A stretch of DNA of 64,000 bases from Mycobacterium sherrisii (GTDB lineage Bacteria; Actinomycetota; Actinomycetes; Mycobacteriales; Mycobacteriaceae), in NCBI RefSeq assembly GCF_002102355.1, contig NZ_LQPT01000028.1, positions 62,001 to 126,000 on the forward strand. The letters run 5' to 3'. The notes beneath the pieces were generated by a model. That model did no database searches, had not been told where the DNA came from, and saw nothing but the letters and a program-made list of their open reading frames with translations. Position numbers and translations under genes: made by a program. Within the stretch, counting starts at the first letter, position 1, and each line of letters opens with the position of its first letter. Of the stretch, positions 24,609 to 40,950 are shown piece by piece.

Positions 24609-26273
24609 ATGATCGACAGACTCACCCGGATTCAGTTGTGGATATTCGCCGTGATCACGGTGATCACGCTGACCGTCATGGCGATCTTCTATCTGCGGCT
24701 GCCCGCCACGTTCGGCCTCGGAACGTACGAGGTGAGTGCGGACTTCGTCGCGGGTGGCGGCCTGTACAAGAGCGCCAACGTCACATACCGCGGCGTCGCC
24801 GTCGGCCGGGTGGACGCGGTGGGGTTGAACCCCAGCGGCGTCACCGCCCGGATGCGGCTCAACAGCGGCACGCCCATCCCGTCCAACGTCGTCGCCACGG
24901 TGAAGAGCGTGTCCGCCGTGGGTGAGCAGTACATCGATCTGGTGCCACCGAGCAAGCCCGCGACGACCAAATTGCACGACGGCTCTCGGATCGATCGGGC
25001 CAACACCCGCATCGGCCAAGACGTCTCCGACCTGTTGAAGCGGGCCGAGACGCTGGTCAACAGTCTCGGCGACACCAGGCTGCGGGAGTTGCTGCACGAG
25101 ACGTTCCAGGCGGCTAACGGGTCGGGGCCGGAATTGGCCCGGCTGCTCGAATCGGCGCGATTGCTGGTGGACGAGGCCAATGCCGACTATCCGCAGGTGT
25201 CACAGCTGATCGATCAGGCCGGCCCGCTGCTGGAGTCTCAGATTCGCGCCGGTGCCGACATCAAATCGCTGTCCGACGGGTTGGCCCGGTTCACCTCCGA
25301 AGTGCGTCGAGCCGACCCGCAGCTGCGCTCGACGTTGGCGACCGCGCCGGGCGCGACCGACGAAGCCAGCACGGCGTTTTCCGGCATTCGCCCGTCGTTT
25401 CCCGCGCTGGCCGCCAACCTGGCCAACCTGGGCCGAGTGGGCGTGATCTACCACAAGTCGATCGAACAACTCCTGGTGGTGTTGCCCGCACTGTTCGCGG
25501 CGATCGCCACGGCCGCGGGCGGCGCGCCCCAGGACGAGGGCGCCAAGCTGGACTTCAAGCTCGACCTCAACGACCCGCCCCCGTGCGCCGTCGGCTTCCT
25601 GCCCCCACCGCTGATGCGCACCCCCGCCGACGAGACGCTGCGCGAGCTCCCGAGCGATTTATACTGCAAGGTTGCCCAAAACGACCCCAGCACGGTCCGG
25701 GGCGCGCGCAACTATCCGTGCCAGGAGTTTCCCGGCAAGCGGGCTCCGACCATTCAGCTGTGCCGCGACCCGAAGGGTTATGTGCCGGTGGGCCGTAACC
25801 CGTGGCGCGGTCCGCCGGTGCCGTACAACACCCCGCAGACCAACGGGCTGAACACGTTGCCGCCCAACAAATTTCCTTACATTCCGCCGGAGGCAGAGCC
25901 GGACCCTGGCACACCGATCGTCGGCCCACCGCCGCCGGGCGTGGTGCCGGGGCCGGGGCCGCTGCCCAACCACCAGCCGGCCTACTCGCCGCCGCCACCC
26001 AACGACAACGGTCCGCCGCCGCCGTTCACGTCGTGGCAACCGCCCGGCGTGCCCCCGGTCCCGCCGCAACTCCCGTATCCGAAGTGGCTGCCCCCACCGG
26101 CGCCGGCACCCGGGGCAGGCCCGCAGGCCAGTGGGCCCGCGTACACCACCTATGACCCGGATACCGGCGCCTTTAGGGATCCGGCAGGAGGGACTGGTAT
26201 TTTCGCGGCCGGCGGAAACACGTCCAAAGCCGAGAACTGGGTGGACCTGATGCTTGATCCGAGGCCGATGTAG
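24609..26273 (+). CDS. mce4F: Mce4F substrate-binding protein
   Basis: A 554-aa MCE protein (Rv3494c is 564 aa). Anchor helix LWIFAVITVITLTVMAIFYL, MlaD domain (FVAGGGLYKSANVTYRGVAVG), helical region, then a very proline-rich tail from about residue 420 (PPPGVVPGPGPLPNHQPAYS). Two cysteines near residues 330 and 355 are in the conserved pre-tail block. The stop TAG overlaps the GTG of mam4A. Confidence 0.94.
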   Translation: MIDRLTRIQLWIFAVITVITLTVMAIFYLRLPATFGLGTYEVSADFVAGGGLYKSANVTYRGVAVGRVDAVGLNPSGVTARMRLNSGTPIPSNVVATVKSVSAVGEQYIDLVPPSKPATTKLHDGSRIDRANTRIGQDVSDLLKRAETLVNSLGDTRLRELLHETFQAANGSGPELARLLESARLLVDEANADYPQVSQLIDQAGPLLESQIRAGADIKSLSDGLARFTSEVRRADPQLRSTLATAPGATDEASTAFSGIRPSFPALAANLANLGRVGVIYHKSIEQLLVVLPALFAAIATAAGGAPQDEGAKLDFKLDLNDPPPCAVGFLPPPLMRTPADETLRELPSDLYCKVAQNDPSTVRGARNYPCQEFPGKRAPTIQLCRDPKGYVPVGRNPWRGPPVPYNTPQTNGLNTLPPNKFPYIPPEAEPDPGTPIVGPPPPGVVPGPGPLPNHQPAYSPPPPNDNGPPPPFTSWQPPGVPPVPPQLPYPKWLPPPAPAPGAGPQASGPAYTTYDPDTGAFRDPAGGTGIFAAGGNTSKAENWVDLMLDPRPM

Positions 26274-39269: not shown

Positions 39270-39288
39270 TAAGGTAAGGCTTACCTTA
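39270..39288. promoter_or_regulatory. IdeR/DtxR-type iron box
   Basis: TAAGGTAAGGCTTACCTTA, a perfect 9+1+9 palindrome matching 15 of 19 positions of the IdeR consensus TTAGGTTAGGCTAACCTAA. It ends 27 bases before the diflavin reductase ATG, where repressor would block transcription in iron-replete cells. Confidence 0.82.
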
Positions 39289-39315
39289 TAACGCTGGACG
39301 ACCAGGAGCGGCGCC

Positions 39316-40950
39316 ATGACTTCGGAATGTGCGGTCCTCGTCGGCTACGGCAGCGACATGGGGAATGCCGAAGACGCCGCCATCTCGTTTACCGAAGCGC
39401 TCAAGGAGGCGCTCGACCTGAGCACCACCGCACTCGAACTCAACCAGGTCGAACCCGCCAACCTGCAATCGGTAACTCACTTCTTCGTGGTGTGCTCGAC
39501 GTGGGGCGAGGGCGAGTTCCCAGACAATGCCGCATTGTTCTGGGAGGCAATACGCGCCGAGGATGCCGACCGGTTGGAGCATTTGCGATTCGCGGTCCTC
39601 GCGCTCGGTGACACCGGCTACGACCAATTCTGCAATGCGGGCCGGCTGCTCGACGAGCGGCTGGCAAGTCTGGGTGGCATCCGGTTACTCGATCGCGTTG
39701 ACGTCGACGGCCCCTACCAGCAGGCGGCGCAGACGTGGACGGATGAGGTGATCAAGCTGCTCGTCGCGGCCCAGACCAAGACCGTGCCCGCGGTCGTCGC
39801 AAGCGTGTCGGAACCAGGACCGGCACAGGGCGCCGGATCCGCGCGGCGCGACCGCAGCCACCCGCTTCACGACGCGCGCGTCGTGGTCAATCGCCTGCTC
39901 ACCACCGCCGAGTCGGACAAAGAGGTCCGGCATTACGAGATAGATCTCTCCGGATCCGGGATCGCTTATGAGGCAGGCGATTCCGTCGCCGTGCAGGCAA
40001 CCAACAATCCCGTGTTGGTCGAGGCCATCTTGGACGAGCTGGGCGCGGATCGCGAGCATGCGGTGGCCGGTTACGACGAGCCACTGGGCGTGCTGCTCAC
40101 GGAGCGGCTTGAAATTCGGACTCCGTCGCGGGCGTTGCAGACCCTGGCGGCAGCGCGGATCGGGGCGGGGCTTGCGACGTTCCCGCCGGGCGGCGCCAAT
40201 GCGACCGGGCCGGACCCGTGGCGGGACGGCAAGGATGTGCTCGACCTGATCAGGCTGGCCCGGCTGACCATCGATGAAGTCGTCGACACCCTGCGCCCAC
40301 TGCAGTCCCGGGATTATTCGATCGCTTCCAGTCCGCTGGTACATCCCGACCGGGCGCACTTGACGGTGGCGACGGTGCGCTACGACGCCGGCGGACGTCG
40401 ACACGGCGGCGTGGCTTCGACGTTCCTGGCCGATCGAGCCGAGACGGTACGAGTGCAGCTGCGGCCCAACCATTCGTTCCGGTTGCCCGCCGCCGACGTC
40501 CCGATCATCATGATCGGTCCCGGCACCGGCATTGCACCGTTTCGCGCGTTCCTGCAGGAACGTCAGGCGGTGGGCGCGTCTGGCCGATCGTGGCTGTTCT
40601 TCGGCGATCGTCGACGTCACTGCGATTTCCTGTACCGAGACGAGCTCGGCGCCTTCGTCGGCTCCGGCACGCTCAGCCGACTCGATCTTGCGTTCTCCCG
40701 CGACTGCGCCGGTGATGAGCCGAAGCGGTATGTGCAGCACCGTATGTGGGAGAATTCGACGGAGATCTACGCGTGGCTACAAGACGGCGCGCACGTGTAC
40801 GTCTGTGGCGACGCCGACCGGATGGCCAAAGACGTCGACACAACGCTGCGCGGCATCGTCGCCCGCTGCGGCGGGATGGACGATGCCGCCGCGCACGCCT
40901 ACGTCAACGAACTGATGAAGAACCACCGTTACCTGCGCGACGTCTATTGA
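39316..40950 (+). CDS. CysJ-like diflavin reductase under an iron box
   Basis: A 544-aa protein with a flavodoxin domain (residues about 6-150, VGYGSDMGNAEDAA), an FAD-binding CysJ/CPR domain (RDYSIASSPLVHP near 330, GGVASTFLADRA near 365) and an NADPH domain (MIGPGTGIAPFRAF, LFFGDRRRHCDF, YVCGDADRMAKDV), ending in the aromatic YLRDVY of CysJ. It would pass electrons from NADPH through FAD and FMN to a partner. No sulfite reductase haemoprotein is nearby. ATG 39316 has AGGAG. The iron box points to iron-starvation induction. Confidence 0.9.
   Translation: MTSECAVLVGYGSDMGNAEDAAISFTEALKEALDLSTTALELNQVEPANLQSVTHFFVVCSTWGEGEFPDNAALFWEAIRAEDADRLEHLRFAVLALGDTGYDQFCNAGRLLDERLASLGGIRLLDRVDVDGPYQQAAQTWTDEVIKLLVAAQTKTVPAVVASVSEPGPAQGAGSARRDRSHPLHDARVVVNRLLTTAESDKEVRHYEIDLSGSGIAYEAGDSVAVQATNNPVLVEAILDELGADREHAVAGYDEPLGVLLTERLEIRTPSRALQTLAAARIGAGLATFPPGGANATGPDPWRDGKDVLDLIRLARLTIDEVVDTLRPLQSRDYSIASSPLVHPDRAHLTVATVRYDAGGRRHGGVASTFLADRAETVRVQLRPNHSFRLPAADVPIIMIGPGTGIAPFRAFLQERQAVGASGRSWLFFGDRRRHCDFLYRDELGAFVGSGTLSRLDLAFSRDCAGDEPKRYVQHRMWENSTEIYAWLQDGAHVYVCGDADRMAKDVDTTLRGIVARCGGMDDAAAHAYVNELMKNHRYLRDVY

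Follow-up and report, generated by a model that had tools for sequence, protein, structure and literature searches.

A CysJ-like diflavin reductase behind a conserved IdeR-type iron box in mycobacteria, a possible electron donor for ferric-siderophore reduction

Results

A diflavin reductase gene behind an iron box

The window, i.e., the whole stretch of 64,000 nucleotides of Mycobacterium sherrisii that was analysed, contains an intact gene for a diflavin reductase (hereafter A), and a 19-bp palindrome lies shortly upstream of its start. The features of the locus are as follows (plus denotes the strand as given):

39270..39288, no strand: IdeR-type iron box TAAGGTAAGGCTTACCTTA, matching TTAGGTTAGSCTAACCTAA at 15 of 19 positions and TWAGGTWAGSCTWACCTWA at 19 of 19; conserved in orthologs
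39287..39292, plus: -10-like TATAAC, found by eye, overlapping the 3' end of the box
39304..39308, plus: AGGAG resembling a ribosome-binding site, found by eye, 7 nt 5' of the ATG
39316..40950, plus: CysJ-like diflavin reductase A, intact open reading frame of 544 aa (from the sequence, Pfam, NCBIfam and dN/dS)
39340..39723, plus: flavodoxin (FMN) domain, aa 9-136 (Pfam Flavodoxin_1)
39868..40509, plus: FAD-binding region from aa 185 (Pfam FAD_binding_1; its estimated end is where the NADPH domain begins)
40510..40839, plus: NAD(P)-binding domain, aa 399-508 (Pfam NAD_binding_1), followed by the CysJ-type C-terminus YLRDVY

The box pairs in 9 of 9 positions, and its 3' end lies 27 bp before the ATG of A at 39316. 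Its score of 15/19 refers to TTAGGTTAGSCTAACCTAA, which we take to be the IdeR consensus, and the full score to the W-degenerate consensus TWAGGTWAGSCTWACCTWA. The runner-up site in the window reached 12/19 against the IdeR consensus; among 150 Markov shuffles of the window, scanned on both strands, a score of 15 was reached in one and a score of 14 in seven, and on count alone the match is modestly beyond chance. As TATAAC overlaps the box, the box may cover the promoter of A, an arrangement that fits repression by IdeR. A second perfect 19-bp palindrome of the window, CGTGATCACGGTGATCACG at 24650-24668, is unrelated to the iron box.

The FMN, FAD and NADPH domains of A follow the order of CysJ, the flavoprotein of the NADPH sulfite reductase of E. 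coli, with which A is collinear over residues 6-544. Among solved structures the closest to A is 6efv (E 3.6e-105), a sulfite reductase flavoprotein, and the alignment of the two extends to the C-terminus (YLRDVY in A, YQRDVY in 6efv). Compared with three close orthologs, A has a dN/dS (NG86) of 0.18-0.19, and compared with the copy at locus L150 one of 0.24; the gene is under purifying selection. Pfam assigned an enoyl-CoA hydratase to the upstream neighbour and a HATPase to the convergent downstream neighbour. An earlier note, made from the letters of the window, had described the palindrome with its score and spacing, the three domains with a CysJ-type C-terminus, and the lack of an adjacent sulfite reductase, siderophore or transporter gene, and all of this was borne out by the coordinates, by Pfam and the 6efv alignment, and by the two neighbours, respectively.

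A is CysJ-like without being filed here as a CysJ, because it lacks the N-terminal region, scores below the curated cut-off and comes from a genome with no CysI above its own cut-off. The best NCBIfam match is cysJ with 488.6 bits against an equivalog cut-off of 668.15, a threshold that a CysI-linked CysJ taken as control (L144) likewise fails to reach (634.2 bits). The match to the 597 positions of the cysJ model begins at position 59 in A and at position 22 in both the control and one copy of the sister family B (see below); the N-terminal region of CysJ has a role in octamer formation. CysI above the TIGR02041 cut-off was found in none of the 61 genomes searched (weaker matches occurred in 54), and in the window genome the best weak match falls within NirA.

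Two other families invite comparison. SIP-type flavin reductases are, among others, credited with stripping iron from mycobactin-type siderophores. In passages of PMC8891985, SIP/ViuB proteins and IrtA carry out flavin-based reduction of ferric siderophores in the cytoplasm, the role proposed below for A, and iron boxes also stand at SIP and SIP-ABC genes of the window genome; they belong, however, to another fold family, and A has FMN and FAD domains and no SIP domain (PF04954 or PF08021) in a Pfam search. The mycobacterial molybdopterin oxidoreductase-CysJ fusions carry a diflavin module homologous to A (41-47% identity) within about 1400 aa (domains checked in one copy), whereas A stands alone. 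One such fusion, of 1413 aa, is encoded in the window genome itself (L045:7998-12239, G000:C90), and long open frames with the same CysJ-like diflavin module are common in the genus.

Iron sites in the genome and conservation of the box

In the 5.56-Mb window genome, 6 sites match TWAGGTWAGSCTWACCTWA when up to 3 mismatches are allowed, and 4 match a control pattern read backward, so the number of sites by itself proves little; no site in this genome fits the stricter pattern TTAGG-N9-CCTAA. The box before A is the only site without mismatch. The other five, with 2-3 mismatches, stand at genes to which Pfam assigned MmpS/MmpL, an AMP-binding ligase (270 bp from its site), SIP, DUF2470 and SIP-ABC (IrtA-like) domains; we take them to be IdeR-type or siderophore genes. 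The same genome has two genes for DtxR-family repressors (Fe_dep_repr_C proteins).

Full-length A, i.e., a standalone match of at least 535 bits among up to five candidates scored per genome, was found in 85 of the 248 genomes of the genus and was not found in 163 (hand counts from tables of the 248 genomes, as are all genus counts below; the split copy of G070 is not included). We extracted 57 mycobacterial A loci, M. neoaurum ATCC 25795 and M. septicum DSM 44393 being among the carriers of A; 56 of the loci entered the box counts (the partial match L163 was left out). A box of at least 12/19 lies within 125 bp upstream of A in 50 of the 56 and of 33 of 812 control genes from the same loci, the X gene of L154 (see below) being among these controls. 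The position is similar across loci, mostly 30-59 bp upstream, counted from where the homology match begins rather than from proven start codons. For L177, whose called reading frame crosses the box, a later start was assumed. The score is 15 in the window, M. triplex, M. ahvazicum, M. montefiorense and one further species, 14 in the related genome G031, 16 in M. rhizamassiliense and 18 in Mycobacterium sp. E1214. The remaining loci have boxes of 12-14, most with a conserved core TAAGGTnnCCCTAA; 38 of the 56 loci score just 12-13, which limits the evidence from the boxes. No near box was found at six loci. Five of them belong to Mycolicibacter, where the box precedes X instead; the sixth is L106, whose A is interrupted by a stop codon behind a shortened box. 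The L106 copy of A looks decayed, as does that of L241, which has a split reading frame beside X.

Control of A by IdeR under iron starvation, as the earlier note had proposed, is thus a well-supported prediction, based on the unique exact site, the looser sites at iron genes, the conservation across species and the two DtxR-family genes: a box near the start, beyond chance and kept in orthologs, occurs in a genome with a regulator of the right family. In most loci in which A is not linked to X, A lies between dacB2-like and ffh genes, and no iron gene was recognised among the labelled part of the neighbours (dacB2, blaI, gltD and che1 serve as provisional gene names throughout). The case for A is carried by the conservation of the box and by the linkage with X, not by the count of sites.

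A small protein linked to A

In all five Mycolicibacter loci, a box of 16/19 is followed by a gene for a protein of ~255-277 aa, termed X, and then by A, and the stop codon of X overlaps the GTG start of A; on this arrangement, box, X and A form a predicted operon, which is new here. The long frames of A in these loci (627-769 aa) were considered as N-terminal extensions and rejected, because they read into X, a separate gene that overlaps A. At L154, X and A are divergent with a single box of 18/19 between them, and at L241 they diverge over one box of 17/19. In 19 other X loci, X is separate from A, usually next to blaI-like or thioesterase-like genes, with a box of 13-16/19 upstream. The linkage of A and X is confined to few lineages. 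X occurs in 148 of the 248 genomes, namely in 76 of the 85 with A and in 72 of the 163 others (Fisher p 8e-13, a statistic that ignores kinship). It was not found in the window genome nor in 8 other genomes with A, and A would act there alone or with another partner. At L280 (G125), a Mycolicibacter-like nirA cluster contains the box and X without A, so that X, and not A, appears to be the fixed element of that cluster. Outside the genus, X gave 11 matches; 10 of these loci were examined, and in 5 of the 10 X stands next to a FecCD siderophore permease (the Pfam test for FecCD covered 5 loci). The X loci L193-L211 and L269-L278 represent an uncharacterised FhuF-like family without the cysteines of FhuF, with boxes upstream and often with a further box-like palindrome at the 3' end of X.

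Passages of PMC8891985 and PMC11965169 present FhuF as a [2Fe-2S] reductase of ferric siderophores. A profile of X (about 250 aa), built from 19 diverse rows (many similar ones were left out, as were L275, L277, L282 and L283), matched a profile of FhuF collinearly in hhalign with a probability of 92.2% (P 5.8e-7, 165 columns, 13% identity); a narrower alignment of 23 of 25 copies of X (without L192 and L207) gave 69.5%. In controls, the highest probability among 100 column-shuffled profiles was 4.6% (P 0.0088), and reversing the profile lowered it to 0.1%. The FhuF profile had 10 rows: FhuF of E. coli plus 9 of 28 matches to PF06276 chosen for the cysteine motif. Single sequences of X (23 members) gave no convincing match in Pfam or NCBIfam, PF06276 included, the best being E 0.0087 among scattered weak ones; a search of PDB with the profile of X gave no match, and an AlphaFold2 model built from just five sequences had a mean pLDDT of 47.7, too low a value for judging the fold. 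X differs from FhuF in lacking the C-terminal four-cysteine [2Fe-2S] motif: CC...CxxC, present in all 10 FhuF rows (which were chosen for it), is absent from X. In the 19-row alignment no column reaches 80% cysteine, and no row has more than one cysteine in its last 45 residues; in the 23-row alignment, L209 has three scattered C-terminal cysteines, and one N-terminal column is mostly cysteine. Two single open reading frames (L222 and L223, from G022 and G030) combine an ABC-ATPase-like stretch, seen by eye, with an FhuF-type domain that has the four-cysteine motif.

A sister family behind a second glutamate synthase

In a quick tree, from which the L106 copy of A (one internal stop) and matches covering fewer than 470 query residues were left out, A was sister to a second family, B, with an SH-aLRT support of 100 for A+B, the outgroup branch being very long. 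B differs from A in being tied to glutamate synthase and, in the copy tested, in keeping the N-terminal region. In all nine loci inspected, B directly follows a second GltB (~1775-1845 aa), in the place where GltD would be expected, and by coordinates the same holds in 21 of 21 genomes (in G080 the match to the second GltB is in two pieces). The best boxes within 500 bp upstream of the nine second gltB genes scored 12, 13, 13, 14, 16, 16, 15, 16 and 12, i.e., seven of nine have a box of 13-16/19, as compared with at least 13 in 4 of 1387 random 300-bp windows. An ordinary gltB was present in all 25 genomes checked, and in the two inspected a GltD-like gene follows it (motif seen by eye). The second GltB with its diflavin reductase occurs at L044:2324-9581, L072, L073 and L083-L088, and also at L142, a Rhodobacterales MAG. 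Three copies of the second GltB have the cysteine motif C-x5-C-x3-C, as against C-x5-C-x4-C in two ordinary ones. The second GltB together with its diflavin reductase looks like a low-iron glutamate synthase, and these loci, where most second gltB genes have an iron-box-like site upstream, suggest that CysJ-like reductases are more widely used at low iron.

Discussion

We propose that A supplies electrons from NADPH for the reduction of ferric siderophores and thereby for the release of iron during iron starvation, a reading to which we give a probability of roughly 0.5. IdeR with bound iron would repress A, and iron starvation would induce it. Electrons would pass from NADPH to FAD and on to FMN, a path taken from homology, and in the iron-starved cell from A to the ferric siderophore, from which Fe(II) would be released. 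In many mycobacteria A probably works with X, which would hold the ferric siderophore, so that the pair could reduce it without an iron-sulfur cluster; in the lineage of the window, A may act directly on the siderophore, via free flavin or via an unrecognised partner. The pairing of A and X in several relatives suggests that iron is freed from captured siderophores by flavins rather than by iron-sulfur clusters. Several findings speak against a siderophore role, among them that X is missing from the window genome, that 72 of the 248 genomes have X but no full-length A, and that the sister family B is linked to glutamate synthase, not to siderophores. That a cluster-less, FhuF-like X and a CysJ-derived diflavin reductase perform IdeR-controlled release as part of a wider iron-sparing set, the low-iron glutamate synthase included, is a more tentative extension, about which we are somewhat doubtful.

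The earlier note had left two mechanisms side by side, release of iron from siderophores and replacement of ferredoxin-based transfer. The former has gained from the linkage with the FhuF-like X in relatives, and the latter keeps support of its own, because B adjoins a second GltB that is often iron-boxed, so that it remains a live rival. According to it, A is a general iron-sparing donor that at low iron steps in for ferredoxin and ferredoxin reductase with enzymes such as NirA, P450s or glutamate synthase, in the manner of flavodoxin in other bacteria; we consider this rather unlikely. Besides the B loci, A lies within a nirA-cysH-che1 cluster in Mycolicibacter, and a NirA/CysI-like gene stands near 16 of 23 non-mycobacterial relatives; the L280 cluster, however, has the box and X without A, no electron acceptor was recognised next to A at most of the other loci, and NirA itself depends on sirohaem and an iron-sulfur cluster. 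NirA is present in 244 of the 248 genomes, most of them without A, so strict co-occurrence of A with a haem sulfite reductase, which according to the earlier note would have refuted its reading, was not observed; since NirA is nearly universal, its co-occurrence with A is uninformative.

That A is after all a true CysJ, forming an NADPH sulfite reductase with CysI or NirA while the box is incidental, is highly improbable and was rejected: its nearest solved relative and its best NCBIfam match are of this kind, but the truncated N-terminus, the score below the cut-off, the lack of CysI above its cut-off in all genomes searched and the retention of the box in most loci argue against it. A different task in iron stress, such as haem breakdown, electron supply to a P450 or lipid desaturase, or reduction of free flavin for the release of ferritin iron, seems improbable as well, if less so. 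Diflavin reductases are promiscuous, and the absence of X from the window genome would fit such a task, but no conserved neighbour of this kind was recognised beside A among the part of the neighbours that was labelled.

Among the matches listed from the open-licence PMC literature, no title or abstract opening concerned an IdeR-controlled diflavin reductase, and passages of PMC8891985 credit the stripping of siderophore iron in mycobacteria to the IrtAB transporter. If reduction of ferric siderophores by A is correct, an NADPH-diflavin route under IdeR would add a new element to iron acquisition, and it would clearly exemplify how an electron-transfer chain can be rebuilt with flavins to save iron. 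Both the A-X gene pair and the parallel glutamate synthase operon are directly testable.
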